Assembly: GCF_002973535.1 (NCBI RefSeq)
Contig: NZ_PVEP01000003.1
Location: forward strand, 62,001 to 126,000
Reading direction: 5' to 3'
Source: Albidovulum denitrificans
GTDB lineage: Bacteria > Pseudomonadota > Alphaproteobacteria > Rhodobacterales > Rhodobacteraceae
Length of the DNA: 64,000 bases
Shown: in pieces, positions 24,763-41,816 of the stretch
How positions within the stretch are numbered: the stretch's first letter is position 1
How the letters are laid out: every line of letters begins with the position of its first letter
Notes under the pieces: generated by a model
Told to the model about the DNA's origin: nothing
Database searches by the model: none
What the model saw: only the letters and a program-made list of their open reading frames with translations
Translations under genes and position numbers: made by a program

Positions 24763-25317
24763 CTACGGGTCGATGGGGTCAGCCCGCAGGGCGGCGGCGA
24801 TGTCGCCATCCAGCGGGGTGGCAAAGGATTTCAGGATGAAGGCGAGGGTGGAGTAGAACCCGACCGTCGCGATCAGGTCGAGCGCGCCTTCCGCGCCCAT
24901 CTCCGCCAATAGCCGCGCCTTCGTCGCCGGGGTCAATTCCGCACCGTCCAGAAGCTCGTCCACCGCCGTGGCAAGCAGCGCGTCGGCGGGGGCCATCTGG
25001 TCGGGCGATCCCCGCATCGACCGGATGCGCGTGTCATCCAGCCCGCATGTGCGCGCGCGGACAACGTGCTGCGCCCATTCATAGGCGGACCCCAGTCGCA
25101 CCCCGGTGCGCAAGATCACCACTTCGGACCGGTCGCGGCCCAGCGAGGTCCGGTTGACGACGTGTTCGCGAAGGTCCGACCATGCCTTCAGAAGTGCCGG
25201 ATGGTGGGCCATCACGCGATAGACGTTCAGGCCCCCGGCAAAGCCGCTGCGCATCTCGGGGATCGACTCGGGCCAGTCCTCATCGGAGACCGGCAGCATG
25301 GGATTGTCGTTGGCCAT
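24763..25317 (-). CDS. Carboxymuconolactone decarboxylase (CMD) family protein
   Basis: A 184-aa helical protein: MRSGFAGGLNVYRVMAHHPALLKAWSDLREHVV, then RDRSEVVILRTGVRLGSAYEWAQHVVRARTCGL, which is the CMD core with the Glu and His of the YEWxxH motif. The AhpD-type CxxC pair is absent, so it belongs with the decarboxylase/isomerase-like members, often found in catabolic operons. It is the last gene of a nine-gene minus-strand run and starts 9 bp after the aminotransferase stop. Reaction unknown. Confidence 0.8.
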   Translation of the reverse strand: MANDNPMLPVSDEDWPESIPEMRSGFAGGLNVYRVMAHHPALLKAWSDLREHVVNRTSLGRDRSEVVILRTGVRLGSAYEWAQHVVRARTCGLDDTRIRSMRGSPDQMAPADALLATAVDELLDGAELTPATKARLLAEMGAEGALDLIATVGFYSTLAFILKSFATPLDGDIAAALRADPIDP

Positions 25318-25326
25318 ATTCGTTCC

Positions 25327-26649
25327 TCAGCCCAGCGCCACGTCTATCGCGCCTGAAAGCTTGTCGACAAGCTCATCCAGTTGCGCGTCCTCGATGATGA
25401 AGGGCGGCGCGAGCAGGACGTGATCGCCGCTCCGCCCGTCGATGGTCCCCGCCATCGGGTAGCAGATCAGCCCGGCCTCGAACGCGGCCTTCTTGATCTT
25501 TCCCGCAATGCCGCGCGACGGGTCGAAGGGGGCCTTGCTGTCCCGGTCATCGACCAGTTCGATGCCCCGGAACAGACCCCGCCCGCGCAGGTCACCGATA
25601 TGGGGGTGCTGGCCGAAACGGTCCTGAAGCCGCGCCATCAGCTTGTCGCCCTGTACCTTCACCCGGTCGACCAGCCCGCGGTCGAGAATGGCCGAAACCA
25701 CCGCATGCCCCGCCGCCGCCGCGACCGGATGGCCGATATAGGTGTGACCGTGCTGGAAGAAGCCCGACCCGCCCGCAATGGCATCGTAGATGTCGGAGGT
25801 ACACAGCATCGCCCCGATCGGCTGGTAGCCCGCGCCAAGGCCCTTGGCGATGCAAAGGATATCGGGCGCGACATCGTCCTGTTCGCAGGCGAAAAGCGTC
25901 CCGGTCCGGCCCATGCCGCACATGACCTCATCAAGGATGAGGAGGACGCCGTATGTGTCGCAGATCTCACGGATACGGCGGAAGTATCCCGGCGCGGGCG
26001 GGAGCGCACCCGCCGTCGCGCCGACGACGGGTTCGGCCATGAAAGCCATCACCGTTTCCGGCCCAAGGCGCAGGATTTCCGCCTCAAGCGCGTCGGCGGC
26101 GCGGCGGCCATAGGCCTCTGGGCTTTCCCCCTCGGCGCGGTAGCGGTAGTCGTAGCAGGGGTCGATATGGCTGACATCCAGCAGGAGCGGCCCGAACTGC
26201 GCCCGGCGCCATTCGTTGCCACCGGCCGACAGGGCGCCGATGGTATTGCCGTGATAACTTTGCTTGCGCGCGATCAGGCGGCCGCGCTGCGGTTCGCCCT
26301 TCTCGACCCAGTATTGCCGCGCCAGCTTGATCGCCGCTTCGGTCGCCTCGGACCCGCCGGAGACAAGGTAGACCCGGTCGAGCCTGCCCGGCGCGTGGGC
26401 GATCAGCAGATCGGCGAGCGCCTCGGCCGGTTCCGAGGTCAGAAAGCCGGTATGCGCGAAGGCGAGCTTGTCCAGCTGCGCCTTGATCGCCTCGGTCACC
26501 GCCGTGTCGCCATGGCCCAGGCACGACACCGCCGCGCCGCCCGACCCGTCGAGATAACGCTTGCCGGTGCTGTCGAGCAGATAGCAACCTTCGCCGCCCA
26601 CAGCGACGGGCGGGGCGGATTTCGTGTGCCGGGGGAAGATATGGGACAT
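25327..26649 (-). CDS. Class-III pyridoxal-phosphate aminotransferase
   Basis: A 440-aa fold-type I aminotransferase. SGGSEATEAAIKLARQYW (residues 97-114), SYHGNT (131-136), LLILDEVMCGMGRTG with Asp240-Glu241, and the PLP lysine Lys269 in CIAKGLGAGYQPIGA. The HGHTYIGHPVAAAAGHAV stretch matches omega-transaminases (class III), which act on terminal amines such as putrescine, beta-alanine or taurine. It follows the C45-type gene after 37 bp in the same transcription unit; a role in the breakdown of an amine made by the upstream decarboxylase is inferred. Confidence 0.88.
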   Translation of the reverse strand: MSHIFPRHTKSAPPVAVGGEGCYLLDSTGKRYLDGSGGAAVSCLGHGDTAVTEAIKAQLDKLAFAHTGFLTSEPAEALADLLIAHAPGRLDRVYLVSGGSEATEAAIKLARQYWVEKGEPQRGRLIARKQSYHGNTIGALSAGGNEWRRAQFGPLLLDVSHIDPCYDYRYRAEGESPEAYGRRAADALEAEILRLGPETVMAFMAEPVVGATAGALPPAPGYFRRIREICDTYGVLLILDEVMCGMGRTGTLFACEQDDVAPDILCIAKGLGAGYQPIGAMLCTSDIYDAIAGGSGFFQHGHTYIGHPVAAAAGHAVVSAILDRGLVDRVKVQGDKLMARLQDRFGQHPHIGDLRGRGLFRGIELVDDRDSKAPFDPSRGIAGKIKKAAFEAGLICYPMAGTIDGRSGDHVLLAPPFIIEDAQLDELVDKLSGAIDVALG

Positions 26650-26686
26650 GATCGGCTCCTACCGTTTCACTGGCCCGCGGCGGGCC

Positions 26687-27676
26687 TCAGGATGCGTGGG
26701 GCTGCGGTTCGGGCATGACGATCCGCCGCGCGCCCTCGGCGAAGGCATTCAGGGTCAGAGGCCAGGTCGCGCGCGGCCAGCGCAGTTCCATCTCCCCCAG
26801 TCGGGGACGATATACCGCCGTGTAAAGCGTTCCGAAACCGCGATCGAAGGCGGTGGAGTAGATCGGGCGGCGCAGGAAGGCCGAAATGAACTTGTCCTCC
26901 GGCTCCACATGCAGGGTGAGGCGCTGCAAGAGGAAACGTTCGCGTTCCACCGTCGCGGTCATGCGGGCATGGGCATCCCATTCGACCCGCTCCTGATGGT
27001 TGGTGGCGACCGCCGCATGGGTCAGGAGGGTGGCGCGATCCGGGGCCATCAGTGCGGTCAGGAAATTCCGCTTCCGGTCCAGAACGGTGACATTGTAGCT
27101 CATATGCGTGGGGATGCGGACCAGGGCGCGGCCGGCCTCCTCGGCCGTTGTACAGGTCTGAAGCACATAGCGCAGGATCAGCGGCACGCCGAACCCGTCC
27201 CCCACCACGCGCCGCCCGCCAAAGGTCAGCGACACCGCAAGCCCGGCGTCGTTGACCCCGTCGACCAGCCCCCAGAGACCGTCCGAGGTCCCCATGACGG
27301 TCCGCCCCTGCCAGCCGGTATGCAGCACGATCCCTTCGAAGGACCGCGGATCGTAGTCGTAGTTGCGCACCAGAACGGGTTCCCTGCCGGGCCAGATCGC
27401 CTGACTGCATCCCGACAGATAGGGCGGCGGGCGGTATAAGCTGAGGAAACGGGCGGCCAGATCGCCGCCACCGGCCAGCGCGCAAAGCTCTTCGTAAAGC
27501 GGCAGGATTTCGGGCATGTGGGTTTCAAGCGCCCGCAGACTTTCGCGGTAGGTCGGGCGCGCATCCTCCCCTTCCCGCAGCCACCATGTGCGGTAGGCGG
27601 GCCAAAGCTCCTCGAAAAGCGCGGCCCATTTCGGGCCGGGCCGGTCTTCGCTTATGGCCCGCCACCAGAGGTCCAT
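26687..27676 (-). CDS. C45-type autoproteolytic Ntn acyltransferase/hydrolase
   Basis: A 329-aa protein resembling acyl-CoA:6-aminopenicillanate acyltransferase-like Ntn hydrolases. Gly89-Cys90 in YLSGCSQAIW is the expected cleavage/nucleophile site; Arg103-Asn104-Tyr-Asp106 (VRNYDYDP) is the conserved block after it, then GTSDGLWGLVDGVNDAGLAVSLTFGG. These enzymes make or break amide bonds between acyl groups and amines. ATG 27676 shares a base with the stop of the ATP-grasp gene (TAATG), indicating translational coupling with the ligase. The substrate is unknown. Confidence 0.75.
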   Translation of the reverse strand: MDLWWRAISEDRPGPKWAALFEELWPAYRTWWLREGEDARPTYRESLRALETHMPEILPLYEELCALAGGGDLAARFLSLYRPPPYLSGCSQAIWPGREPVLVRNYDYDPRSFEGIVLHTGWQGRTVMGTSDGLWGLVDGVNDAGLAVSLTFGGRRVVGDGFGVPLILRYVLQTCTTAEEAGRALVRIPTHMSYNVTVLDRKRNFLTALMAPDRATLLTHAAVATNHQERVEWDAHARMTATVERERFLLQRLTLHVEPEDKFISAFLRRPIYSTAFDRGFGTLYTAVYRPRLGEMELRWPRATWPLTLNAFAEGARRIVMPEPQPHAS

Positions 27677-29136
27677 TACATGATCTTGAACGCGGGATCG
27701 GAAAGCGCCGGACCGGCCGCCGTCATCGGCAATGGATCGGCCGAGAAGGCGGACTTGATCCCGTGGATCCACTTCAGCGCGCGTTCGTTCAGCCGGAACC
27801 CGTTGGTCATCGACCGGCCGCGCGTGACGAGGATACCAAGATCGGCGCCTTCATAGCGATAATCGCCGGGCTTCAGGATGCGCAGGAAGAAGGCCTCATT
27901 CTCCGATTCCACCGCGCGGCGGTGATAGTCGAAGCGGTCGAAGACCACGCGACCATCTTCCAGCATCCGGTAGATGCCCGTCTGCGGCGCGCCCGTCAGC
28001 CGGTCCACCGAATCCTCGGTATGCTTGATGACCATCTGGCTCCAGCCGTCGATCATGTCCGGGTCGGCCCAGCGGGCGTTCAGCTCATCCACGTCCAGCT
28101 TGAACTGCGCTTTGGAGAATTCGAGCAGGTGGAACAGGAACAGGGGCGCGTCCGCATGGGCGAAGGCGGCGTGGTTGGTCATGGAAGAGGCGCCGGTGAT
28201 GCGCGGGTTCAACTCCCCCAGCCAGATGTCGCCGGTCTTCTTGTCAATCAGGAAATCAAGCTCGAAATAACCACGATAGCCTTCCTTGCGAAGCTGTTCG
28301 CCAAACTTGAAGGTCAGGTCGCGGGCCTTCTGCCGAACCTTGGGCGCGAAGGCGGTGGCGAAGATCTCATTCCCGCACCAGCCGCCGCGATAGGGGGTCA
28401 GTTCCCTGAAGCCCACAAGCTCTGTCATCAGGGGGCCGACGATGGTGCCTTCGCTGGTCGCGCAGCCCTCGATGGCGGAGCCGCGACAGTCGATCCGCTT
28501 CATGATCTTGATCTCGCCCTCGCCGACGATCTCATGTTCATGGCGGCGGAAATCGGCCTCGGACTTGATGAAGAAGGTGGTGTGACCGCTGTCGCCAAAG
28601 GCCGATTGCAGGACGAGGTCATGGCCAAGCCCGGCCTTCTCGCAGGTCTTCTTCAGGTCCTCATAGCTTTTGACCTCGGCCAGCGTATTCGGCACCGATG
28701 GCACACCGGCCTTGTTGCCGACGCGCACCGTCTCGATCTTGTTGTCCATCTTGGTGCGAAGCTTCGCCTTCGGGAACCAGACATCGCCACCCAGTTCCTT
28801 TGCCAGGCGCTCCGTCTCCTCATCGAACATCAGGAAGACGAATTTCGGCTTGCCGCCGCGCCGCTTGATGAGGTCGATCACCTCCTTGTGCTGGAGGAGG
28901 TAGTTGTTGATGTCCTCGATCGACTGGAATTCGGCATGCGGCTGCTCGGAGGGGCAGAAGACGTTGGGGTGACGTCCGTCATAGCAATCTATGTAGCAGA
29001 TATACTTGAAGTTCTTGCACCACTCATCAATCCCCAGAAGGTTGAAGTTCGTGGCCGAGACGAAATAGACCGGGTCCTCGTTACGGTGAAAGAAGCGGCG
29101 GATTTCCGAGATGTTGTTCAGCTTTGTCTTGGACAT
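27676..29136 (-). CDS. ATP-grasp domain ligase (biotin carboxylase-like annotation class)
   Basis: A 486-aa protein. After an N-terminal Rossmann-like half (DPVYFVSATNFNLLGIDEW) comes the ATP-grasp fold: KMDNKIETVRVGNKAGVPSVP, HDLVLQSAFGDSGHTTFFI (Gly-rich loop), IMKRIDCRGSAIEG, then GYFELDFLIDKKTGDIWLGELNPRITGAS with Glu292, Glu308 and Asn310 as Mg/ATP ligands. It lacks biotin carboxyl carrier features. ATP-grasp enzymes couple a carboxylate to an amine or thiol via acyl phosphate. The start follows AGAGAGTAAGACATG. Coupled to the C45 gene downstream and 18 bp after the decarboxylase. Confidence 0.8.
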   Translation of the reverse strand: MSKTKLNNISEIRRFFHRNEDPVYFVSATNFNLLGIDEWCKNFKYICYIDCYDGRHPNVFCPSEQPHAEFQSIEDINNYLLQHKEVIDLIKRRGGKPKFVFLMFDEETERLAKELGGDVWFPKAKLRTKMDNKIETVRVGNKAGVPSVPNTLAEVKSYEDLKKTCEKAGLGHDLVLQSAFGDSGHTTFFIKSEADFRRHEHEIVGEGEIKIMKRIDCRGSAIEGCATSEGTIVGPLMTELVGFRELTPYRGGWCGNEIFATAFAPKVRQKARDLTFKFGEQLRKEGYRGYFELDFLIDKKTGDIWLGELNPRITGASSMTNHAAFAHADAPLFLFHLLEFSKAQFKLDVDELNARWADPDMIDGWSQMVIKHTEDSVDRLTGAPQTGIYRMLEDGRVVFDRFDYHRRAVESENEAFFLRILKPGDYRYEGADLGILVTRGRSMTNGFRLNERALKWIHGIKSAFSADPLPMTAAGPALSDPAFKIM

Positions 29137-29154
29137 GTCTTACTCTCTCCCTCT

Positions 29155-31887
29155 CTATTCCGCCGCGGTGGCGAGTTTGGTCATCTGGCTGGCCAGCGCA
29201 TCCTCGGTGAACACCCTGAGACCAAGTTCGGCGCGGTAGCCGTGGATCTCGTTCACGTCGAGCGCGCGCATGAAGGCAAGGATTTCCCGGCTCACGACCT
29301 GTCCGGGGACAAGGATCGGGAAGCCCGGCGGATAGGGGATGATGAAAGACGCCGAGACGACCGCGCGGCCCTTGTCCATCTCCTTCTCGATCCCGCCTTC
29401 CAGTTCGAGGTAGTCGCACTTGTTTTCATCGTAGGACAGGAAGAAGGCGCTGCGGATGTCGCCTTCGCCGGTCTCAGCATCGGTGCAGAAGGCCGGGTGG
29501 AACTGCGAGAAGTCGGGCAAGGGCGGCAGGTCCTGCATCAGGTTCCTGACGCGCCGCTCGAAGGCCAGCCGCTCCATCTTCGAGGCATCGTCAAGCCGGT
29601 CGTCCAGTTCCTTCGCGATCTCCACCAGAACCTCGATCAGATAGGCGACCGAGGATCGCGTGGTCCCGATATTGGTCATGAAAAGGACCGTGTTGCGCGA
29701 GGTCTTGTTGATCTGGATGCCGTATTTATCCATGAGAACTTGCGTCTTGAACGTGTCACCGTCCCATCCGGTTCCCCCCACGGCCAGCGTGACCCGCGTA
29801 GCATCAAGGACGAATTCGTCCTTTTCCCAGCACTCCCAGATATCGGTCCAGCCCTGATCGGGGTCGTAATAGCTTTCCACCCCGCTTTCGCGGAAATCCT
29901 CGGGGATCATGTCGCCTGCGGCAAGGACCTTGAAGTATTTCTGCAAGAGCGGGTGGGTAGAGATCGCGCGGCGCATGGCCATCGCCGCCTCAACCTGGCG
30001 CTGGACGAATTCGAACCCTTCCAGTTCCACCTGCCGCCGCCCGACGTCGAGCGAGGCGATGATCTGGTAATTCGGGCTGGTCGAGGTGTGGGTCATATAG
30101 GCTTCGTGGAAGCTTTGCTCCACCTCGCCCTTGAAGTCCTGATCGTTGACATGGATCATCGACCCCTGCCTGAGCGCAGTCAGCGTCTTGTGCGTCGATT
30201 GTGTGGTGTAAACCCGCACCCGCGCCGTGGGCGGCGGGATCAGTCGGGTTTTCAGCAGCGTCGCCTCATCGGCATCCTCCAGCTTTTCGGCCTGTTTGGC
30301 ATGGGCCTTGGCGTGTTCGGGCGACCGCAGCCGTTCACGCAGCACATTGGCGGCGTTCATGCCGGTACGCTGGCGGTAGGTCGGGCCGAAGCGGGCGAAG
30401 GCGAACCATGCCTCGTCCCACAGGAAGATCAGGTCGGGCTTGATGGCGAGGCATTCCTCCATCACCCGTTCGACGTTATAGACGATGCCATCGAAGGTGC
30501 AGTTGGTCAGCAGAAGCATCCTGACCTTGTCGAGCTTGCCCGCCGCCTTCAGCTTCAGAAGCTGATGCTTGATCTCCCGCAGCGGCACCGCACCATACAT
30601 CGAGTATTCGTTCAGCGGATAACTGTCGAGGTAACGCACCTGCGCGCCGGCCAGCACCATCCCGTAATGGTGCGACTTGTGGCAGTCGCGGTCGATCAGC
30701 ACGATATCCCCCGGCCGGACCAGCGCCTGCACGACGATCTTGTTGCAGGTCGAGGTGCCGTTGGTGGCAAAGAAGGTCTGCTTCGACCCGAAGGCGCGGG
30801 CGGCGTATTCCTGCGCCTTCTTGATCGGCCCGGTCGGTTCCAGAAGGCTGTCCAGCCCGCCCGATGTCGCCGATGTTTCGGCCAGGAAGATGTTGGGGCC
30901 ATAAAAGGCGCCCATGTCCTGAATCCAGTGCGAACGGGAAATGGACTTGCCCCGGCTGATCGGCATCGCATGGAAGACGCCGGTGGGCTGTTTGGAATAT
31001 TCCACCAGCGCGGTGAAGAACGGCGTCTTGAACCGTGACTGAACGCCGCGAAGGATGTTCAGATGCAGTTCCATGAAGTCTTCCTGATTGTAGAAAACCC
31101 TGCGGCAGATCCCCAGATCGAGACCTGCGATGTCCTCGACCGAGCGGTCGGTCACCAGATAAGCGTCAAGTTCCGGCCGCACCCGCGCGATCAGGCGGCA
31201 CAGTTCCGGCCCGTAATCCTCGGGCGGGATGTCCTCGATCCGGTCCTCGCCGCCCGCGCGGTTCAGGTAGCGCGTCAGGATCGGCAGATCGACATCGGAT
31301 TCAAGCCGTAGGCCCGGCCGCACAACGATGGCCTGGATGTTGTAGTTGAAGAGGATCCCGATCAGCGCGTCCTTGAGGCTTGGCACCACGACGGGTTCGT
31401 AGATGAAGGCATCCTCGGGCCTGCGCATCGAGGTCATGTTGGCCTTCAGCCAGCGTTCCTGATGCTCATTCACGTCATCGACGATCAGCACCTCGAAATA
31501 GGGCTTCGTCAGCGCCCGCGCCTCGGGCGGCAGAAGCGCCTCTTCTTCCTGCTCCTCGTCAAGGCTGCCGCGCTCCAGCGGGATATGCCGACGGCGATAG
31601 GCGCCGGTGCCAAGGCCACGGGTCACACGGCGGGCGGCGAATGCGACCTCTTCGATCAGCCCGTGATCGAACTGCCGCCGCATGTGGTCAAAGGCGGATA
31701 CGCCGGGAAAGGCCCAGTAGCGTTCGATGACCGCCAGCGCCTCGAAAAGCGCCGCCGCCTCGGCCCTGATCTGTTTCGAGCGCCTTCCCTCCGGCTCACG
31801 CTCAAGCTGATCCAGCTTTTCGCGCAAGGCGCTCCAGCGGTCGGACCGCAGTTGCACCGCCGAGTAGTAGTCGCCCATCGACTGCAT
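29155..31887 (-). CDS. Orn/Lys/Arg decarboxylase-type PLP enzyme, long form (910 aa)
   Basis: Fold-type I decarboxylase. The N-terminal about 270 residues contain a receiver-like wing (FEVLIVDDVNEHQERWLKAN, 131-150, to IQAIVVRPGLRLESD). The PLP domain shows FFATNGTSTCNKIV (372-385), DRDCHKSHHYG (399-409), LWDEAWFAF with Asp491, and Lys567 in TTQSTHKTLTALRQGSMIH. The C-terminal domain follows. Typical bacterial lysine/ornithine/arginine decarboxylases are about 710-780 aa, so this is a longer subfamily. It would release CO2 from a basic amino acid or derivative. Start ATG 31887 has an excellent GAGGAGGAACG. Confidence 0.85.
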   Translation of the reverse strand: MQSMGDYYSAVQLRSDRWSALREKLDQLEREPEGRRSKQIRAEAAALFEALAVIERYWAFPGVSAFDHMRRQFDHGLIEEVAFAARRVTRGLGTGAYRRRHIPLERGSLDEEQEEEALLPPEARALTKPYFEVLIVDDVNEHQERWLKANMTSMRRPEDAFIYEPVVVPSLKDALIGILFNYNIQAIVVRPGLRLESDVDLPILTRYLNRAGGEDRIEDIPPEDYGPELCRLIARVRPELDAYLVTDRSVEDIAGLDLGICRRVFYNQEDFMELHLNILRGVQSRFKTPFFTALVEYSKQPTGVFHAMPISRGKSISRSHWIQDMGAFYGPNIFLAETSATSGGLDSLLEPTGPIKKAQEYAARAFGSKQTFFATNGTSTCNKIVVQALVRPGDIVLIDRDCHKSHHYGMVLAGAQVRYLDSYPLNEYSMYGAVPLREIKHQLLKLKAAGKLDKVRMLLLTNCTFDGIVYNVERVMEECLAIKPDLIFLWDEAWFAFARFGPTYRQRTGMNAANVLRERLRSPEHAKAHAKQAEKLEDADEATLLKTRLIPPPTARVRVYTTQSTHKTLTALRQGSMIHVNDQDFKGEVEQSFHEAYMTHTSTSPNYQIIASLDVGRRQVELEGFEFVQRQVEAAMAMRRAISTHPLLQKYFKVLAAGDMIPEDFRESGVESYYDPDQGWTDIWECWEKDEFVLDATRVTLAVGGTGWDGDTFKTQVLMDKYGIQINKTSRNTVLFMTNIGTTRSSVAYLIEVLVEIAKELDDRLDDASKMERLAFERRVRNLMQDLPPLPDFSQFHPAFCTDAETGEGDIRSAFFLSYDENKCDYLELEGGIEKEMDKGRAVVSASFIIPYPPGFPILVPGQVVSREILAFMRALDVNEIHGYRAELGLRVFTEDALASQMTKLATAAE

Positions 31888-31953
31888 TCGTTCCTCCTCA
31901 TGCAGAGGCGTCCGCCAGCCGATGCGCCGTCCTCCCGGACGCCTCGGCCGGTG

Positions 31954-32931
31954 TCAGCCCGTGGAAATACGCCCCGCCAGCGGCGGCACGCCGTCATCAT
32001 CGCGGAACGGCGGACCCATCGACTTGTGCGCCTCACCGATCACGGTTGTCTCGCGCGGGTTGATGCCGGACAGCGACCCCTGCCGTGGCATTTCAAGCGC
32101 GCCAAGGCTGTGAAGATAGGCATCCGCCCCGCTGGCCCGGTCATAGACCGGGAAATCGACCGACCTGTCGCGGAAGCTTTTCAGCACCTGACCAAGGCCC
32201 TTCATCCCCGTCTCGCGCGTCCGCCGGACAAGGGCGAGGTCGACCTCGATCGGGAACATATCCTCCTGCCCCGCCGACTGGTGCAGCACCGTGGCCGACG
32301 GGTCGACAACACAGGACCGGCCGTTGCCCCCGGCGCCAAGGCCGTTCACGTCGACAACATAGCACTGGAACTGCGCCGCCGTCGCCCGCGCGATGGCCAG
32401 TTCCGCGTCGCGATCCGTGGTGCCGGTCAGGACCGGGTGCAGCAGCACCTCCACCCCCTGCGCGGTCAGTTGCCGCGTGGTTTCCGGGAACCAGATGTCA
32501 TAACAGATCGACAGGCCGAAACGCCCGACATCCGGCACGTCGAAGACGCAGAACTCCGTCCCCGCCTCGACCTCCGTCTCATAGGGCCGGAAAGGAAACA
32601 TCTTGCGATAGCTCGCCACGATCTCGCCCGCGGGATTGATGACGGCGGCGGTGTTGAAGATGCGGCCATCCTCGGTTCTTTCGAACATCGAACCGGGGAT
32701 CAGCCAGATATTGTGCTTGCGCGCGGCGTCCTGAAACCGCGACAGGCTGTCATTGTGGAACGGCAGCGCGAATTTCGGCAGCGGCCCAAAGGGTGCGAGT
32801 TCCGAAAACAGCACCATCTGCGTCCAGGGAAACCGCGCCATCAGGATGTCCAGCCGGTGAAGCATGCCATCGGTGTTGGACTGAAGCGCGTTGACGTACA
32901 TCTGCACGCCGGCGATAGCGAAAGGGGTCAT
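31954..32931 (-). CDS. Carbon-nitrogen hydrolase (nitrilase superfamily)
   Basis: A 325-aa protein. The Glu-Lys-Cys triad is intact: Glu44 in LFSELAPFG, Lys110 in SYRKMFPFRPYE and Cys143 in LSICYDIWFPE. LHPVLTGTTDRDAELAIARATAAQFQCYVVDVNGLG follows. Members hydrolyse amides or carbamoyl compounds such as N-carbamoylputrescine. ATG 32931 puts FAIAGVQMYVN at the N-terminus as usual; ATG 32982, one base after the preceding stop, would add 17 low-complexity residues. It lies between the stress-protein and decarboxylase genes of the same run. Substrate undetermined. Confidence 0.82.
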   Translation of the reverse strand: MTPFAIAGVQMYVNALQSNTDGMLHRLDILMARFPWTQMVLFSELAPFGPLPKFALPFHNDSLSRFQDAARKHNIWLIPGSMFERTEDGRIFNTAAVINPAGEIVASYRKMFPFRPYETEVEAGTEFCVFDVPDVGRFGLSICYDIWFPETTRQLTAQGVEVLLHPVLTGTTDRDAELAIARATAAQFQCYVVDVNGLGAGGNGRSCVVDPSATVLHQSAGQEDMFPIEVDLALVRRTRETGMKGLGQVLKSFRDRSVDFPVYDRASGADAYLHSLGALEMPRQGSLSGINPRETTVIGEAHKSMGPPFRDDDGVPPLAGRISTG

Positions 32932-32983
32932 ATGCGGGCCTGTATCGTTCCCGGCCCCTGCTGCGGGCCGTTCCCTCGCCATA

Positions 32984-33406
32984 TCACCGCACGACCAGAA
33001 CGGAAACCGGCGAGCGCCGGACAACCCTGTCGGCGCGCGATCCGACCAGGAACTCCCTGACCCGGTCGGGCGCGTGGCTGGCCATCACCACAAGGTCCGC
33101 CCCGGTCGAGGTGATGTGGTCAAGGACAACGTCATGCACCCGGCCCACCGCGACATGGCTGATGGCCTCTCGCGCCCCCGCCCCGTCAAGCAGCGCGTCA
33201 AGCTTTTCCTTGGCCGCTTTCAGCGCGTTTTTCTGAAAGTCCGGCGGAAAGTCCGCCGCCACAAGGGCCGCCCCGTAATCCGGCACGACCGACAGGACAT
33301 GAAGCGCGGCGGCGGAGTCGCGCGCGATTTCCATCGCCGTGGGCAGCGCCTTTTGCCATGAGGCGGCATCGCCCAGATCGACGGTCAGGAGGATGGTCTT
33401 GTACAT
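32984..33406 (-). CDS. Universal stress protein (UspA family)
   Basis: A 140-aa Rossmann-like protein: YKTILLTVDLGDAASWQKALPTAMEIARD, LHVLSVVP and the C-terminal nucleotide-binding ADLVVMASHAPDRVREFLVGSRADRVVRRSPVSVLVV (G-x9-GS type pattern, first Gly not conserved). UspA proteins next to TRAP genes, such as TeaD beside TeaABC, regulate the transporter by binding ATP. It starts 12 bp after the TRAP permease stop, so the same role is plausible. Confidence 0.87.
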   Translation of the reverse strand: MYKTILLTVDLGDAASWQKALPTAMEIARDSAAALHVLSVVPDYGAALVAADFPPDFQKNALKAAKEKLDALLDGAGAREAISHVAVGRVHDVVLDHITSTGADLVVMASHAPDRVREFLVGSRADRVVRRSPVSVLVVR

Positions 33407-33418
33407 CTCTTGCCCTCC

Positions 33419-36181
33419 TCAGGCTTCGGCCCGGCGCGGCTTCGGCGCGCGGCCCCGTTGCAGCATCACCACACCCGCCAGAACCAGAAGCGCGGGGATG
33501 AACATCCAGTATTTCGACGGCACCGAGGCCGGTTTCAGGACGCGCAGCACCTCCTGATCCCAGTCGAGCCCTGCCTTCTGCGCGGGCGAGTCATAGGCGG
33601 CATCGTCGATGATCATCTTGTCGCCGTCCTGCCGGAAGGCAAGACCGGCGGCGGCCAGCTTTTCGTCCCCCGTCGCCTCGGCGCCCATCGGGACCAGGGC
33701 GACAAACTGGATCGGATCGCCCAGATCGTTGACGCCCGCCACCCGGACACGAAGGTTTTCACCCGCAGGCGTATCGGCGGCGGCGGCGGCGATCTCGGAC
33801 GGGGCGACCTCGGTGAAGGGCGGATAGATCATGTCCATCCAGAAGCCGGGCCGGAACAGAGTGAAGGCAACAAGCAGCAGGGCGATCCCTTCATGGAAGC
33901 GGTTCCTTGCAAGGAACCACCCCTGCGTCGCCGCCGCGAAGAGGAGCATGGCGATGGTGGCGACGCAGAAGATGAAGATGCCGTGCAGCCAGTCCACGTT
34001 GATGAGCAGGAGGTCCGTGTTGAAGATGAACAGGAACGGCAGCGCGGCGGTTCTGAGCGAATAGAAGAAGGCCACGACGCCGGTCTTGATCGGATCGCCC
34101 CCCGACACGGCGGCGGCGGCAAAGCTTGCCAGACCGACCGGCGGCGTCACGTCGGCCATGATGCCGAAATAGAAGACGAAGAGATGGACCGCGATCAGCG
34201 GCACGATCAGCCCGTTCTGCTGGCCCAGCGTGACGATCACCGGCGCAAGCAGGGCCGACACGACGATATAATTCGCCGTCGTCGGCAGGCCCATCCCGAG
34301 GATCAGCGACAGAACGGCGGTCAGGACAAGGATGGCAAGGATATTGCCGCCCGACAGGACCTCAACCACATCGGCGAGCGCGGACCCCACGCCCGTCTGG
34401 CTGACGGCGCCGACGATGATGCCCGCCGTCGCGGTGGCGATGCCGATGCCGATCATGTTGCGCGCACCGGTGATGAGGCCGTCGAAAAGGTCGCTGACGC
34501 CCTTGCGCACAGCGCCGCCGAACGCCCCCTCGCCGCGCATCATCGCCATCAGGGGGCGCTGGGTCAGCAGGATGAAGATCATGTAGGCGGTCGCCCAGAA
34601 GGCGGAAAGGCCCGGCGACAGGCGATCGACCATCAGCGCCCAGACCAGCACCACGACCGGCAGGATGTAATGCAGCCCCGCGCGGATCGTCGGCCCCGGC
34701 AGCGGCAGTTGCGTGACCGGCGCGTTCGGATCGTCCAGATGCAGCGGCTCTTCCTTCGACGCGATCCAGAGGAGGCCGACATAGACCAGCGTCAGGAAGG
34801 CGAAGACGATGTAGCCCGCCGTTGCCGGGAAGGCCGGGCGGACCCAGCCCATGCCATAATACACGGCCAGCGAGACAGCGCAGATCGCGGCGATGGTAAA
34901 GGCGATGCCGATCAGGCGCTGGACGATAGGCTTGGGCGTATAGGCGCGCGGCAGCCCCTCCATCCCCGCCTTCATCGCCTCAAGATGCACGATATAGACC
35001 AGCGCGATGTAGGAGATGACGGCGGGCAGGAAGGCATGGCGCACCACGTCGAAATAGGGAATGCCGACATATTCGACCATCAGGAAGGCGGCCGCGCCCA
35101 TCACCGGCGGCATGATCTGGCCGTTGACCGAGGACGCGACCTCGACCGCGCCGGCCTTTTCGGACGAGAAGCCCACCTTCTTCATCAGCGGGATGGTGAA
35201 GGTGCCGGTCGTGACCACGTTGGCGATGGACGAACCCGAGATCAGGCCCGTCATCGCCGAGGAGACGACAGCGGCCTTGGCAGGCCCGCCGCGCATATGG
35301 CCCATCAGGGAAAAGGCGACCTGGATGAAGTAGTTCCCCGCACCCGCCTTGTCGAGGAGCGAGCCGAAGAGGACGAAGAGGAAGACGAAGGAGGTCGAGA
35401 CGCCCAGCGCGATGCCAAAGACCCCCTCGGTCGTGATCCATTGGTGGTTCACGATTTCGGACAGGTTGTTGCCCTTGTGGGCGATGATCTCGGGCATGTA
35501 GGGGCCAAGGACCGTGTAGACGAGAAAGACGCTCGCCACGATCATCAGCGCCGGGCCAAGCGCGCGGCGCGTGGCTTCGAGAAGGATCAGGAGGCCGATC
35601 ACCGAAACGACGAAATCCTGCAAGATCGGCGCGCCGACACGGCCGGAGATGTCCTTGTAATAGACATAGAGGTAAAGCGCGGTCGCGGCACCCACCACGG
35701 CCAGCGCCCATTCCCAGGGCGGTATCCGGTCCTTGGGTGAGCCAAGCAGGATCGCGGCGACGATGGCCAGCGACACCAGCGGAATCCACCAGACCGGCGT
35801 GCCTTCCTTGGCCGAGACGAAGAACAGGATGCCAAGGATCACAGGCACCCCGATGCCAAGCGCAAGCTGCACCTTGGTGCGCGCGGCCGGGAAGGCGGCG
35901 AAGGCCAGGAAGATCGCGAAGGCGAGGTGGATGGAGCGCGCCTCGGTATCGTTGAAGACGCCGAAGCCGAGCATGAAGGGGATCGGAGAGGCAATCCAGA
36001 TCTGGAACAGCGACCACGCCAGTGCGACGATCGCGATGAAGGCGCCGACCGGCCCCTGTTGACCGCGCGCGCCGGTGTCCGACGACGCGACGAGTTCGTC
36101 AAGCTCCGCCTGGCTGAGGCCACCATGTCCGGCGGCTTCATTTTCGACCACGGCGGCTTGCTGCTGGTCCTGTCCTGTCAT
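33419..36181 (-). CDS. TRAP transporter fused permease, TAXI type (4TM/12TM fusion)
   Basis: A 920-aa polytopic protein: a DctQ-like small subunit fused to a DctM-like large subunit. TM segments begin at about residue 45 (GAFIAIVALAWSLFQIWIA). The large-subunit signature LILGMGLPTTANYIVVSALLAPVI and GLISGSSIANVVTTGTFTIPLMKK are present, and a soluble C-terminal tail (about 800-890) precedes the last helix. It imports the TAXI ligand using an ion gradient. It is 122 bp downstream of the receptor gene and directly followed by the stress-protein gene. Confidence 0.93.
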   Translation of the reverse strand: MTGQDQQQAAVVENEAAGHGGLSQAELDELVASSDTGARGQQGPVGAFIAIVALAWSLFQIWIASPIPFMLGFGVFNDTEARSIHLAFAIFLAFAAFPAARTKVQLALGIGVPVILGILFFVSAKEGTPVWWIPLVSLAIVAAILLGSPKDRIPPWEWALAVVGAATALYLYVYYKDISGRVGAPILQDFVVSVIGLLILLEATRRALGPALMIVASVFLVYTVLGPYMPEIIAHKGNNLSEIVNHQWITTEGVFGIALGVSTSFVFLFVLFGSLLDKAGAGNYFIQVAFSLMGHMRGGPAKAAVVSSAMTGLISGSSIANVVTTGTFTIPLMKKVGFSSEKAGAVEVASSVNGQIMPPVMGAAAFLMVEYVGIPYFDVVRHAFLPAVISYIALVYIVHLEAMKAGMEGLPRAYTPKPIVQRLIGIAFTIAAICAVSLAVYYGMGWVRPAFPATAGYIVFAFLTLVYVGLLWIASKEEPLHLDDPNAPVTQLPLPGPTIRAGLHYILPVVVLVWALMVDRLSPGLSAFWATAYMIFILLTQRPLMAMMRGEGAFGGAVRKGVSDLFDGLITGARNMIGIGIATATAGIIVGAVSQTGVGSALADVVEVLSGGNILAILVLTAVLSLILGMGLPTTANYIVVSALLAPVIVTLGQQNGLIVPLIAVHLFVFYFGIMADVTPPVGLASFAAAAVSGGDPIKTGVVAFFYSLRTAALPFLFIFNTDLLLINVDWLHGIFIFCVATIAMLLFAAATQGWFLARNRFHEGIALLLVAFTLFRPGFWMDMIYPPFTEVAPSEIAAAAADTPAGENLRVRVAGVNDLGDPIQFVALVPMGAEATGDEKLAAAGLAFRQDGDKMIIDDAAYDSPAQKAGLDWDQEVLRVLKPASVPSKYWMFIPALLVLAGVVMLQRGRAPKPRRAEA

Positions 36182-36303
36182 GTCCCCCCCTGACCCTTGC
36201 CGGGTTCATCACCGATTGAGATGAAAGTATCGTCCGGCGTCGACGAAGGTAGATCGGCCGGTCGTGGCGCCGCCCCACGGACGGGACGGCGCGAAGGGCT
36301 GGC

Positions 36304-37260
36304 TTACATCCAGCCGCGTTCCTTGTAGTATTTCTCCGCCCCCGGATGCAGCGGCGCGGACAGACCGTCCTTGATCATGTCCTCTTCCTTCAGGTTGGCG
36401 AAGGCCGGATGCAGACCCTTGAAGCGGTCGAAATTGTCGAAGACGGCCTTGACCACCTCATAGACCACATCGTCGGGGACGTCGGCCGAGGTCACGAAGG
36501 TTGCCTTCACGCCGAAGGTCTCGACGTCGTCCGGGCTGCCGGCATACATGCCGCCGGGGATAGTCGCCTTGGCATAATAGGGGTTGTCCGCGACCAGCTT
36601 GTCGATGGCTTCGCCGGTCACCGGAACCAGATTGGCCTCGACGGTCGAGGTCGCCTCCTGGATCGAGCCGTTCGGGTGGCCGACGGTGTAGATGATCGCA
36701 TCGACCTTGTTGTCGCCAAGGGCGGCGGCCTGTTCGGCGGGCTTGAGCTCCGAGGCCAGCGCAAAGTCGCTGTCGCTCCAGCCCATCGCACCCAGCACGA
36801 CCTCCATCGTCGCGCGCTGGCCGGAACCGGGATTGCCAACATTGACGCGCTTGCCCTTCAGATCCTCGAAGCTGGCGATGTTCGCATCCTTGCGGGCGAC
36901 GACGGTGAACGGTTCGCCATGCACGGAAAAGACCGCGCGCAGCTTGTCGACCTGCTTGCCCTCGAATTCCGAGGTGCCGTTATAGGCGTGGTACTGCCAG
37001 TCGGACTGGGCAACACCCATGTCCATGTCGCCCGCCGCGATGGCGTTGATATTGGCGATGGAGCCGCCCGTGGACGGCGCGGTGCATTTCAGCCCGGTCG
37101 TCGGGGTGTCGCGGTTCACCAGACGGCAGATCGACTGCCCGACGACGAAGTAGACGCCGGTCTGGCCGCCCGTTCCGATCGTGATGAACCTTTCCTCTGC
37201 GCCGGCAGCCGTCGCCAGAGCCATCGCACCCGCGAAGGTAAAGGTCTTGAGGTAACTCAT
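36304..37260 (-). CDS. TAXI family TRAP transporter solute-binding protein
   Basis: A 318-aa periplasmic receptor. Signal peptide about residues 1-20 ([21 protein letters not shown]), then the TAXI signature [56 protein letters not shown] and [22 protein letters not shown]. Known TAXI ligands include glutamate-like and C4-dicarboxylate compounds; this one is unknown. ATG 37260 has CAGGGAGAAACGCA upstream. First gene of the nine-gene run ending at 24763, so it probably names the substrate of the pathway. Confidence 0.92.
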
Positions 37261-37671
37261 TGCGTTTCTCCCTGTCGTACCAACCATGATGCTCGATGAC
37301 GTCCGGGATCTTCCGCCCCGGTTTGTCGCCTTTGCAGCCGCTCAATAGCCCCGGCACAGCTCACGCCGCAGCGAGAGTTTCAGCCTGCCGGGATCGGGTC
37401 TGTTCGCAGCAATGCCACATTCCGTGCGCGGGCTGGCCGCGCTGGATCTCCGGCGAGGCCGGGAAACGATCCGATTGGGAACATTGGCACATTCCATTAG
37501 GGATACGGTAGCGCCCAAACTTGCAGAGTTCAACGCCTGTCGTAACGGAAGCTTCGGTCGGCCTTTTCAGGGAAATCCGCATGGAAGAGGACAGAGGTGA
37601 CGCCATGGCGCTTCGGAATGCGGCAGGAACACTGTGCCGCGGACGAATCTTTGGCGCCCTGTCACGATCTG
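37261..37671. other. Gene-free region upstream of the TAXI-TRAP operon (411 bp)
   Basis: Lies between the TAXI receptor start (minus strand) and the end of the histidine kinase gene (minus strand), so it must hold the promoter of the nine-gene run. Only weak features are seen: a short inverted repeat CGGCA-N9-TGCCG near 37621-37639. No convincing reading frame or terminator was found. Confidence 0.5.
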
Positions 37672-39015
37672 TCAGTCTGGTTGCACGCGGTCGCCCGGCA
37701 GGGTGAAGCGTGCCTCGAACCCGCTATCCCGGCCCGCGCGCGGGGAGAGTAGGTCAAGCCGGGCGCCTGTGCGTTCGGCGATGGCAGCGACGATGGCAAG
37801 GCCAAGGCCGATTCCGTCGTCGCCGGTTCCGGCCCGTTCGAAGCGATCGGTCAGAGAGGCCAACCTGCCCGCCGGGACGGTGGGGCCGTCATTGGCGACG
37901 CTCAGGGTTCCGTCGGCGGTGAGCGTGACATCGACCGGCGCTTCCGCCGCGCCGTGGCGCAGGGCGTTCTCGATCAGGTTGCGCAGGAGGATGGCGAAGG
38001 CGTCGGGGTCCAGATCAGACATCACCGCGCCATCCGGCAGCGACAGGGCGATGCGCCCCTGCCCCACTGTCCGGGAAACGTCCCCGGCCACGACCTCGGC
38101 CACGGGGCGCAGGTCCGCCGCCTTGTCCCGCCTGAGCCGCCCGCCCTCGGCGCGGGCCAGTTGCATCAGCCGTTCCGACAGGCGCGTCAGGCGTTTCAGC
38201 GTGGCCTCGATCCCCGCCGCGCGGGCCCTGGCGTCGGGATCGCGGGTTTCCGCCTGCAAGCGCTGCGCCTGGGCGATGGCCCCGGCCAGCGGCGTGCGCA
38301 GTTCATGGGCGGCGTTGGCGGCAAAGCTGCGCTCGGCCTCGAAGGCCGAGGAGAGGCGGGCGAGAAGGCCGTTCATCGCATCGGCGACGGGGGCGATTTC
38401 CACCGGCAGGCCAGAGGCGGCCACCGGGCCAAGATCGCGCGCCCCACGCGCCGCCAGACGGTCGCGAAACTGGCGCAGGGGCGCAAGGCTGGCGCGGACG
38501 GCGAGGACGATGGTCAGCAGCGCCACCGGAAGCAGGATCAGCAGCGGCAGACCCAGGCCCATCTGAAGTTCCCGCGCAACGCTGGCGCGATGGTCCAGCG
38601 GTTCGGCCACGGTGATGCGGACCGTGCCTTGCACCGCCTCATCGTTGTAAAGCCGGTGCGTCGCGGTCTGACGGAAGCCGGTGCCGTCCCAGGCGGGAAA
38701 GCTCGCCGGATCGGCGCTGTGCGAGGTCAGCAGGACGCGCCCCTGATCGTCTCGCACGATGTAGGTGAAGAATTCCTCATGGTTGCGGATGGCGGCGAGG
38801 CGCTGGCTGATCCCCTCTTCCTCGCGGTTGAGGATATCAATGGCGGCAAGCGGCAGAAGACGCTGCGCGGTTTCCTGCAAGGCGGCGTCGAAGACCTCTT
38901 CCATCTCCGTCCGCGCAATCAGCGCCGTGACGCTGGCAGCCGCGATCCAGACCAGCGTCAGGCCGAGGCCGAGCCAGAGGCCCAGACGGCCCTGAAGGCT
39001 GCGCGGCGCCCTCAT
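37672..39015 (-). CDS. Sensor histidine kinase (QseC/PmrB-like)
   Basis: A 447-aa kinase: TM1 about residues 11-33, a periplasmic domain (about 35-150), TM2 about 151-175, a HAMP-like linker, HisKA with His237 in FAANAAHELRTPLAG, the N box LLRNLIENALRHG and the G box DDGIGLGLAIVAAIAERTG. Its start overlaps the response-regulator stop (ATGA). Together they would sense an envelope signal, possibly metal or redox given the neighbouring PepSY and cytochrome genes; the ligand is inferred, not seen. Confidence 0.9.
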   Translation of the reverse strand: MRAPRSLQGRLGLWLGLGLTLVWIAAASVTALIARTEMEEVFDAALQETAQRLLPLAAIDILNREEEGISQRLAAIRNHEEFFTYIVRDDQGRVLLTSHSADPASFPAWDGTGFRQTATHRLYNDEAVQGTVRITVAEPLDHRASVARELQMGLGLPLLILLPVALLTIVLAVRASLAPLRQFRDRLAARGARDLGPVAASGLPVEIAPVADAMNGLLARLSSAFEAERSFAANAAHELRTPLAGAIAQAQRLQAETRDPDARARAAGIEATLKRLTRLSERLMQLARAEGGRLRRDKAADLRPVAEVVAGDVSRTVGQGRIALSLPDGAVMSDLDPDAFAILLRNLIENALRHGAAEAPVDVTLTADGTLSVANDGPTVPAGRLASLTDRFERAGTGDDGIGLGLAIVAAIAERTGARLDLLSPRAGRDSGFEARFTLPGDRVQPD

Positions 39016-39671
39016 CCCCGCCCCAGCCGGTAGCCGAGGCCGCGCTCTGTCTCGATCACCCCGGCGCCCAGTTTCTTGCGCAGGCGGCTGACATGGACCT
39101 CGATCGTGTTGCTTTCGACGTCCGATCCGAAGGCGTAAAGCTTGTCTTCCAGCTGCGCCTTGGACAGAAGCTGGCCGGGGCGCGACAGGAACGCCTCGAA
39201 CAGCGCCCATTCCCGCGCGGTCAGGGTCACCGGGCGGCCGTCGCGGTGAATGCTGCGGGCGGCGAGGTCGATGGCAAGCGGCCCGTGCGTGACGATGGGG
39301 TTGGGGTTGCCGGCATAGCGCCGGGCGACAGAGCCGATGCGGGCAGACAGTTCGGCCAGATCGAAGGGCTTGACCAGATAGTCGTCGGCGCCCGCGTTCA
39401 GCCCCTCGATCCGGTCGCTGATCTGGTCAAGCGCGGTCAGGATGATGACCGGGGTGACATCGCCCTTCGCGCGCAGTTTGCGCAGGAAGGGGATGCCCCG
39501 TCCGTCGGGCAGCATCAGGTCGAGGAGAACAAGATCGAAGGCCGCCCCGGCGATCGCGTCGCCCGCCGCGTCCAGCCGTTGCACCCAGTCGACGGAATGG
39601 CCATCAGCCGCCACCTGATCGCGCACGGCGGCGCCCAGAACGGTGTCATCCTCAATCAGCAAAATCCTCAT
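39012..39671 (-). CDS. OmpR/PhoB family response regulator
   Basis: A 219-aa regulator. Receiver domain MRILLIEDDTVLG with phospho-acceptor Asp51 (LVLLDLMLPDG) and Lys101 (YLVKPFD), then a winged-helix DNA-binding domain (LTAREWALFEAFLSRPGQLLSKAQLEDKLYAF ... ESNTIEVHVSRLRKKLG). ATG 39671 is chosen because it places MRILLIEDD at the N-terminus. The gene is divergent from the PepSY gene; the four-half-site box at 39722-39773 lies between them and is a likely autoregulatory target. Confidence 0.93.
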   Translation of the reverse strand: MRILLIEDDTVLGAAVRDQVAADGHSVDWVQRLDAAGDAIAGAAFDLVLLDLMLPDGRGIPFLRKLRAKGDVTPVIILTALDQISDRIEGLNAGADDYLVKPFDLAELSARIGSVARRYAGNPNPIVTHGPLAIDLAARSIHRDGRPVTLTAREWALFEAFLSRPGQLLSKAQLEDKLYAFGSDVESNTIEVHVSRLRKKLGAGVIETERGLGYRLGRG

Positions 39672-39721
39672 CTTCCGTGCCGTCCCGTTGCCTTGCCCGT
39701 GGCTATCCATGCCCGCCCCCG

Positions 39722-39821: not shown

Positions 39822-40124
39822 ATGCGAAAGACCCTGACAATTCTAGCTTTTGTGACCTCTCTGCCCGCCGGTGCGGCGTTTGCGGACGATGACTGCTTTG
39901 TCCCGATGGCCGACTGGCAGCCGCGCGAAGAGGTTGCGGCGCTGGCCGCCCGTCAGGGCTGGACCGTGCGGCGGATCAAGATCGACGATGGCTGCTACAA
40001 GATCGACGGCCGCGATGCCGAAGGGCGCAAGATCGAGGTGAAGGTTCAGCCCGGCACCCTTCAGATCGTCGAGTTCGAGTATGACGACGATGGACGCGGG
40101 AGGAAGGACCGTGACGACGACTGA
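39822..40124 (+). CDS. Periplasmic PepSY domain protein
   Basis: A 100-aa protein with a signal peptide (about residues 1-21, MRKTLTILAFVTSLPAGAAFA), a DUF/PepSY-like core (PREEVAALAARQGWTVRRIKIDDGCYKIDGRDAEGRKIEVKV) and an acidic end (EYDDDGRGRKDRDDD). Two cysteines (DDDCF, DDGCY) could form a disulphide. PepSY domains are regulatory or binding modules found near redox and metal systems. GGAG precedes the ATG. The cytochrome gene overlaps its last 14 bp. Confidence 0.85.
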   Translation: MRKTLTILAFVTSLPAGAAFADDDCFVPMADWQPREEVAALAARQGWTVRRIKIDDGCYKIDGRDAEGRKIEVKVQPGTLQIVEFEYDDDGRGRKDRDDD

Positions 40125-40746: not shown

Positions 40747-40784
40747 TTTTCGTCCCGACCACTTGTCCCACTCGTGGTCCCACT

Positions 40785-40815
40785 GGCCCCGCCCTGTCCC
40801 GGCGGGGCCTTTTTT
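40785..40815 (+). terminator. Intrinsic terminator after the cytochrome b gene
   Basis: Nine-base stem GGCCCCGCC / GGCGGGGCC with a 7-base loop, followed by TTTTTT. It separates the PepSY-cytochrome unit from the next promoter, whose regulatory box begins 5 bp later. Confidence 0.92.
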
Positions 40816-40819
40816 CTTC

Positions 40820-40871
40820 CTGACGGCAAGCTGAAGCAGAAATGTCCCGACTGTCAGGAACCTCTCAGCTT
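40820..40871. promoter_or_regulatory. Candidate response-regulator box, copy 2
   Basis: Same arrangement as 39722-39773: CTGA at 40820 and 40831, TCAG at 40854 and 40865 (11/23/11 spacing), with TGACG-N2-AAGCTGAAGC-N16-TCAGG-N6-TCAGCTT. It lies 42 bp upstream of the Asp-rich protein gene, right after the terminator, so it should control the second half of the cluster. Confidence 0.65.
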
Positions 40872-40913
40872 GGGGGCCGAGATTGCCCGCATCTGATCCA
40901 AGGAGACCTGATA

Positions 40914-41297: not shown

Positions 41298-41333
41298 CCC
41301 CCCTGATCGCAGTTCAGACCGAAGGACCCGCTT

Positions 41334-41801: not shown

Positions 41802-41816
41802 GACGGGGGCGATCCC

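Follow-up and report, generated by a model that had tools for sequence, protein, structure and literature searches.

Does the run of nine adjacent minus-strand genes at positions 24763–37287 of a stretch of the Albidovulum denitrificans genome encode a single pathway and, if so, what would that pathway do? The window analyzed here is a 64,000-nucleotide stretch of contig NZ_PVEP01000003.1 (positions 62,001 to 126,000), and a preliminary description of it had read all nine genes as one pathway in which an amino-acid-derived compound is imported, decarboxylated, ligated or acylated, deacylated and transaminated. Comparison with related loci indicates that the conserved unit is smaller, comprising four genes that encode a nitrilase-superfamily amidohydrolase, a pyridoxal phosphate (PLP)-dependent decarboxylase, an ATP-grasp ligase and a C45-family protein, and that the nine genes are not one unit. 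We propose, with a probability of roughly 0.38, that these four genes are a mobile enzyme module that makes and processes an omega-amino acid and is served by interchangeable importers; its substrates and the order of its steps we infer from protein sequences and gene neighborhoods.

Four of the nine genes form a conserved unit

Scanning one genome collection for the ligase yielded 456 relatives; neighborhood counts were made on the best 80 and so describe close relatives. Sixty-six of the 80 loci had at least 9.9 kb of upstream and 4 kb of downstream sequence and formed the full-flank set; the 14 without full flanks were excluded. In every one of these 66 Rhodobacterales-type loci the nitrilase, decarboxylase and C45 genes lie on the same strand as the ligase gene. 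Median identities to the window proteins, among loci with a match, are 88% for the ligase, 81% for the decarboxylase, 78% for the nitrilase and 74% for the C45 protein. We take the four-gene linkage to be beyond chance because it is kept in all 66 loci, although these are close relatives (their ligases are 87–100% identical) and the judgment is a qualitative one.

The remaining genes come and go. Near the core of the full-flank loci we find the TAXI solute-binding protein in 31/66, the TRAP permease in 30/66, the aminotransferase in 27/66, the UspA-family protein in 25/66 and the CMD-family protein in 3/66. All nine genes occur in the same order and on the same strand in only two of the best 80 loci, L014 and L015, the former (DSM 15620) having a ligase 100% identical to that of the window and so representing either this very genome or one extremely close to it; in L019 the CMD and aminotransferase genes are inverted. 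A peptide-type ATP-binding cassette (ABC) transporter binding protein, of the kind found in Roseobacter ponti, is present in 8 of the 80 loci, seven of them lacking TAXI, and 22 of the 80 have a gene with 50% or higher identity to R. ponti GabT. The importer, UspA, aminotransferase and CMD genes being absent from many relatives, we rejected the nine-gene pathway as a unit: five of its genes are optional in the 66 full loci. What survives of it is the four-gene core, which stays together where the other five are scattered. That five genes are not conserved neighbors is what would be expected if the cluster were a chance assembly or a decaying remnant, but for the core this explanation is contradicted by the four genes standing together in all 66 loci, and in each of the 22 loci read from another family, described below, with their active sites intact; we regard it as very improbable.

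The nine open reading frames (ORFs), all verified in the window, are as follows, with family calls made using Pfam and NCBIfam models together with sequence searches against PDB. The family matches uphold the identities first given to all nine genes.

24763–25317, minus strand: CMD-family (AhpD-like) protein, accessory (PF02627, 26.9 bits, cut-off 23)
25327–26649, minus strand: class-III aminotransferase, accessory (PF00202; NF005685/PRK07483, 765 bits, cut-off 485)
26687–27676, minus strand: C45 N-terminal nucleophile (Ntn)-type amidohydrolase/acyltransferase, core (PF03417; NF040521, 185 bits, cut-off 85)
27676–29136, minus strand: ATP-grasp ligase, annotated 'biotin carboxylase', core (NF005096/PRK06524, 760 bits, cut-off 684)
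29155–31887, minus strand: AAT-fold PLP decarboxylase, Rv2531c-like, core but replaceable (PF01276, OKR-type)
31954–32931 or 32982 (start uncertain), minus strand: nitrilase-superfamily amidohydrolase, core (PF00795)
32984–33406, minus strand: UspA-family protein, accessory (PF00582)
33419–36181, minus strand: fused TRAP permease with DUF3394, accessory importer (TIGR02123, 652 bits)
36304–37260 or 37287 (start uncertain), minus strand: TAXI solute-binding protein, accessory importer (TIGR02122, 368 bits)

The decarboxylase probably acts on an acidic amino acid

In a PDB sequence search the nearest solved relative of the decarboxylase is 9n0o, which is Rv2531c (E 5.7e-249); lysine and arginine decarboxylases match at E 6.7e-62 or weaker. 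A 2026 census counts Rv2531c among putative amino acid decarboxylases and regards its activity as unclarified (PMC12910592). The PLP lysine, Lys567 in an STHK motif, is kept in all 152 covered loci of 155. At the position of Glu526 in LdcI, immediately before K-T-G, the window protein has Asn727, and Asn is found there in 154/154 covered loci; Arg731, four residues further on, is kept in 153/154. The aligned lysine and arginine decarboxylase chains have Glu at the Asn727 position, and Rv2531c has Asn. In a study of LdcI, Glu526 is tied to binding of the substrate and its distal amine by docking and by an earlier proposal cited there (PMC5607190).

Relatives of the decarboxylase that are 48–51% identical adjoin annotated aspT genes on plasmids of Rhizobium sp. 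T1473 (L170), Ensifer adhaerens (L171) and Rhodobacter sp. CZR27 (L172). Three antiporters from L171 and L172 exceed the cut-off of TIGR03802, the model for the aspartate:alanine antiporter, and L170 has in addition an aspartate 4-decarboxylase gene (aspD) and an HdeA/B-type gene. These relatives look like acid-resistance decarboxylases with an acidic substrate. As an observation in its own right, each of the three plasmids carries, in a decarboxylase relative and one or two aspT genes, a candidate undescribed acid-resistance pair.

Because Asn occupies the position of the distal-amine Glu and three relatives stand beside aspartate:alanine antiporters, an acidic substrate appears to be favored over a basic one, and the reaction would be glutamate to gamma-aminobutyrate (GABA) or aspartate to beta-alanine. 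The chemistry of basic amino acids and diamines to which the preliminary description had pointed is thus less likely, and the possible function of the module is narrowed. If the decarboxylase does take acidic amino acids, an activity would be suggested for the group that includes Rv2531c.

The ligase is not a biotin carboxylase, and both hydrolases retain their catalytic residues

The window ligase has no match in Pfam at E 0.001. Members of its family match mainly CPSase_L_D2 (23/23, best E 2.3e-5; the window protein itself scores 0.025, below the cut-off), with other ATP-grasp families matched by fewer members. An E-x-N-x-R motif (E308/N310/R312) is kept in 167/167 loci and aligns with EVNPR of pyruvate carboxylase. 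The IQVEH stretch that follows this motif in pyruvate carboxylase aligns with ITGAS in the window ligase. In biotin-dependent carboxylases this Gln-Val-Glu-His sequence supplies the bicarbonate/biotin residues, and because it is replaced by ITGAS we reject the annotation 'biotin carboxylase'. Carboxylation of urea or guanidine by a biotin-free enzyme was likewise dropped, there being no bicarbonate motif in the ligase. An AlphaFold model of the ligase failed (mean pLDDT 43.5), the alignment holding 38 sequences of which the others are 87–89% identical to that of the window.

The C45 nucleophile, Cys122, is kept in 162/162 loci. A profile of the C45 protein found nothing useful among PDB sequences; a structural model (pLDDT 81.2) has as its best fold match isopenicillin N acyltransferase (2x1c, E 2.4e-11, TM 0.63). 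Judged from this model, the protein has an AAT-type Ntn fold with its nucleophile, and autoproteolysis and acyl transfer or hydrolysis are predicted. In the nitrilase the Glu-Lys-Cys triad is E75, K141 and C174 of the ORF and is kept in 125/125 covered loci of 126; in the window it is intact, as first noted. The nitrilase falls well short of the curated model for N-carbamoylputrescine amidase (TIGR03381), scoring 66 bits where the cut-off is 410. Among PDB chains one labeled nitrilase/beta-ureidopropionase matches at E 3.1e-15 and others at 6e-5 to 7e-5, with several other nitrilase-family enzymes matching as well or better. Judging by their kept residues, the nitrilase, the C45 protein, the ligase and the decarboxylase all appear to be active.

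The module occurs in ectoine, arginine and symbiotic contexts

A ligase match is present in 29 of 121 genomes of f54, a family that belongs to a different class of the phylum. We read 22 loci of this family (L107, L108 and L141–L160) plus L167, leaving six of the 29 genomes unread. All 22 loci have nitrilase, ligase, C45 and decarboxylase genes, in that order, followed by doeC-doeD and preceded by an Lrp gene, and 21 of the 22 have doeA-doeB upstream. In L107, DoeA, DoeB and EutB exceed the curated cut-offs of TIGR02993, TIGR02994 and NF005680; the labels doeC and doeD rest on gene position, the models returning a succinate-semialdehyde-dehydrogenase-like aldehyde dehydrogenase (below cut-off) and an aminotransferase. 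L167 (genome G1386, ligase 45% identical) has the ligase, C45 and an amidase-like gene, and lacks the decarboxylase and nitrilase. In Halomonas elongata doeC directly follows doeX (PMC3187862).

This arrangement raises the possibility of an accessory ectoine route, in which the decarboxylase would act on 2,4-diaminobutyrate or its N-acetyl derivative and the ligase and hydrolases would process the resulting amine. The doeC-doeD genes directly downstream in 22/22 loci and doeA-doeB upstream in 21/22 are what it would predict. However, no doe genes were recognized beside the core in Rhodobacterales loci, where reference genes from the window and plasmids were the only ones sought by name, and the best DoeA match in the genome of the window itself scores 586 bits, below the 613-bit cut-off. 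Moreover, how often DoeA and the ligase are found together in the 244 genomes, counted by hand from match lists, varies with the cut-off: at 613 bits or above DoeA is found in 25 of the 52 ligase-bearing genomes and in 38 of the 192 others (p 1.2e-4, kinship uncorrected), whereas at 684 bits or above the counts are 10/52 and 24/192 (p 0.26). An arrangement seen in one family may also stem from a single ancestral insertion. With the association lost at 684 bits and so not robust, we lowered ectoine as a general function of the module, and we consider this route quite unlikely.

Five further loci, on Shinella, Roseateles and Sinorhizobium plasmids and in two genomes (L117, L124, L125, L135, L138), are of an arginine type. 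All five have the nitrilase, ligase and C45 genes and none has the PLP decarboxylase. Their shared neighbors, each in 5/5, encode an amino-acid permease, UspA, an agmatinase-family protein, a 5-guanidino-2-oxopentanoate decarboxylase (737 bits in L117, cut-off 500), an aldehyde dehydrogenase, a D-amino-acid dehydrogenase, a racemase, RidA and Lrp. Judged by its predicted enzymes, this gene set is a route to GABA.

The arginine genes of these five loci bear on another explanation, namely a protected-amine catabolism resembling the Puu/Pau pathways. These are gamma-glutamylation pathways, with PuuA a glutamine-synthetase-like ligase and PuuD an amidotransferase-like hydrolase. Here the decarboxylase would turn a basic amino acid into agmatine or a diamine, the ligase would acylate one amine, an aminotransferase and an aldehyde dehydrogenase would oxidize the other, and the C45 protein would remove the acyl group. 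Such a scheme gives the ligase, aminotransferase and hydrolase a sensible order. In keeping with it, 18 of the 80 loci have a gene at least 40% identical to the cupin regulator of R. ponti, which by eye is reminiscent of PuuR, and L164 has an arginase-family gene separated by one unassigned ORF from its nitrilase-decarboxylase-ligase set. It is opposed by the Asn that replaces the distal-amine Glu in 154/154 covered loci and by the AspT partners; in addition, L117-type operons would give an aldehyde directly with no diamine, and the nitrilase is left unexplained. We regard protected-amine catabolism as possible but doubtful.

On Rhizobium leguminosarum plasmids (L115, L116, L122) decarboxylase, ligase and C45 genes, without the nitrilase, are followed by ABC transporter and amidase genes, and on the plasmid of strain Vaf10 the same three genes adjoin nifHDKEN. 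By record annotation, L116 and L122 also carry, a few kb upstream of these genes, a Nif11-leader precursor of a ribosomally synthesized and post-translationally modified peptide (RiPP) and two radical S-adenosylmethionine maturase genes. Rhizobial copies beside nif genes or near quorum-sensing and RiPP genes would suit a biosynthetic role, in which a decarboxylated amino acid is built into a small amide (an osmolyte, a signal or a buffer dipeptide) and the C45 protein and nitrilase finish or recycle it. The juxtaposition of an amide ligase with a C45 protein whose nearest fold is that of a biosynthetic acyltransferase would fit as well. Yet catabolic genes are common neighbors, as are importers of the TRAP, peptide-type ABC and amino-acid permease kinds, and no conserved exporter or carrier-protein gene was recognized among the neighbors, for which no systematic search was made. 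Small-amide biosynthesis therefore strikes us as unlikely.

Three other loci (L133, L134, L139) have the order gabT-nitrilase-decarboxylase-ligase-C45, the GabT of L133 exceeding the TIGR00700 cut-off. Paralogous ligases, 41–48% identical, are found in ligase-C45-nitrilase sets lacking the decarboxylase (L105, L106, L131), as ligase-C45 (L136, L137, L167), as decarboxylase-ligase-C45 (L111, L112, L129; the C45 gene of L111 and L112 lies 72 bp from the ligase gene), with a scattered or divergent C45 gene (L110, L128) and alone (L166). The paralogous ligase-C45-nitrilase set of L106 adjoins ABC transporter genes and has a class-I glutamine amidotransferase gene (PF00117) immediately before it (L106:8995-13472). 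Across the 44 loci L105–L140 and L161–L168 the C45 gene is present in 42 (missing from L165, at a contig end, and L166) and the decarboxylase gene in 30, and therefore the smallest recurring unit is the ligase plus the C45 protein.

The module is patchily distributed and probably spread horizontally

Of 244 sampled Rhodobacterales genomes, 52 have a ligase above the NF005096 cut-off and the other 192 have weak matches only; a strong match is found in 17 of 22 genomes of its own genus. In wider samples, which overlap one another, the ligase or a 40–48% identical paralogue (E at most 1e-40) is found in 12/397 genomes of the phylum, 9/318 of the class and 6/194, 3/148 and 10/199 of three other orders. 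Thirty-two plasmid records match the ligase; at least 80% of it is covered in 24, and 24 are typed as conjugative. Because the distribution is patchy and 32 plasmid records match, horizontal spread of the module is likely. The ligase occurs in several proteobacterial groups beyond Rhodobacterales in the company of misleadingly named neighbors, current names in the module including 'biotin carboxylase', 'ornithine decarboxylase' and 'peptidase'. Some copies are incomplete: L116 has C45 and amidase as two ORFs, L119 matches C45 over 0.2 of its length with an IS30-type gene adjoining, the module of L165 ends at a contig edge and L168 has a short ligase ORF.

Gene spacing, transcription signals and flanking genes

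The ORF coordinates reproduce the layout first given for the window, with nine minus-strand genes, gaps of 9 bp (CMD/aminotransferase), 37 bp (aminotransferase/C45), 18 bp (ligase/decarboxylase) and 12 bp (UspA/TRAP), and a TAATG overlap in which the C45 and ligase genes have base 27676 in common. The other gaps are 66 bp (decarboxylase/nitrilase), 1 or 52 bp depending on the start (nitrilase/UspA) and 122 bp (TRAP/TAXI). A scan of the cluster found 0 promoters against a mean of 2.2 in shuffled sequences and seven terminator-like structures against a mean of 9.0, neither count being above chance; the scan neither favors nor disproves a single transcript.

Upstream on the cluster strand (37672–39710, minus) lie genes for a response regulator and a histidine kinase. 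We dropped these as dedicated regulators, since distant matches (28–40% identity) occur in 4/80 loci. On the plus strand, 39822–44024 holds ORFs assigned by eye: a small PepSY-like ORF, one resembling cytochrome b561, one that contains a long run of Asp codons, and a fusion of the PepSY/flavodoxin-reductase-like type.

A proposed route through an omega-amino acid

We suggest that an omega-amino acid is the point at which these contexts meet, because the arginine operons without the decarboxylase would end in GABA and decarboxylation of an acidic amino acid would yield either GABA or beta-alanine, and because GabT recurs as a neighbor and the ectoine operon would end in aspartate; the ligase, C45 protein and nitrilase would therefore be placed there. 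In the first step the PLP decarboxylase would strip the alpha-carboxyl group from an acidic amino acid, most likely converting glutamate to GABA or aspartate to beta-alanine. The ATP-grasp enzyme, a class suggested by its motifs, would then activate a carboxylate as an acyl phosphate and join it to an amine, yielding an amide of the omega-amino acid, most likely through the carboxyl group of the latter. In a third step the autoproteolytic C45 protein and the Glu-Lys-Cys nitrilase, classed by family and residues, would hydrolyze this amide or a derivative of it, and neighboring class-III aminotransferases (PRK07483 here, GabT elsewhere) may finally turn the freed omega-amino acid into its semialdehyde. 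Operons making GABA from arginine would need no decarboxylase, and operons yielding aspartate from ectoine would feed it.

Several observations weigh against this proposal. Its weakest point is that the GABA route of L117 looks complete without the ligase, C45 protein and nitrilase. A ligase and two amidohydrolases acting on one amide would be futile unless a further step separated them. Ligases of about 45% identity accompany C45 without the decarboxylase (L105, L106, L131, L136, L137, L167). For the acidic substrate, the change from Glu to Asn is read from an alignment and the role of Glu526 is postulated from docking and from a proposal cited in that study; at the Arg731 position Rv2531c carries Ile. 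Finally, a decarboxylase relative on a Roseateles plasmid (L169) has arginase and ornithine cyclodeaminase genes nearby and stands apart from the arginine-type ligase operon of that plasmid.

Carnosine-type and Ebony/Tan beta-alanyl cycles offer a parallel for a bacterial omega-aminoacyl amide cycle. By that analogy, the module might represent a new way of handling omega-amino acids, in which an acidic-substrate AAT-fold decarboxylase works with a ligase and a C45 protein that build and dismantle an omega-aminoacyl amide in an Ebony/Tan-like manner, the whole being spread in part by plasmids; we think this rather doubtful. In this reading the system would reach across alphaproteobacteria, betaproteobacteria and one more class, and would have been built into loci for ectoine, arginine and symbiotic nitrogen fixation. 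The earlier view that no characterized pathway has this gene set is borne out by a full-text literature search, with most subscription journals outside its scope: among the matches listed, no paper describes the four-gene module in its title or the start of its abstract.

Comparison with known systems

The window decarboxylase resembles the OKR_DC_1 lysine and arginine decarboxylases (LdcI, AdiA) in fold family and in its STHK PLP-lysine motif, but differs from them in having Asn for Glu526 and, at about 900 residues, a longer N-terminal part; judged by E-values it is far closer to Rv2531c. With biotin carboxylase and pyruvate carboxylase the ligase shares the ATP-grasp core and the E-x-N-x-R motif, whereas it has ITGAS for IQVEH, and none of the nine genes encodes a carrier or a carboxyltransferase. 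The Puu/Pau pathways also place a ligase and an amide hydrolase in an amine-catabolic operon with aminotransferase- and aldehyde dehydrogenase-type neighbors. In the window, by contrast, ATP-grasp and C45 enzymes stand in for the PuuA and PuuD types and a decarboxylase and nitrilase are added; PuuA- or PuuD-type enzymes are not in the cluster, the search having covered its nine genes.

CATCH-N of Sinorhizobium meliloti is an arginine transamination network that leads from arginine to GABA through an AruI-like decarboxylase, a ureohydrolase and dehydrogenases, as in the L117-type operons; the terms 'biotin carboxylase' and 'C45' are absent from the text of that paper (PMC7268258). The doeABX/doeCD ectoine degradation genes of H. 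elongata include the genes that flank the module in the f54 loci, the difference being that there the four module genes are inserted before doeC (PMC3187862).

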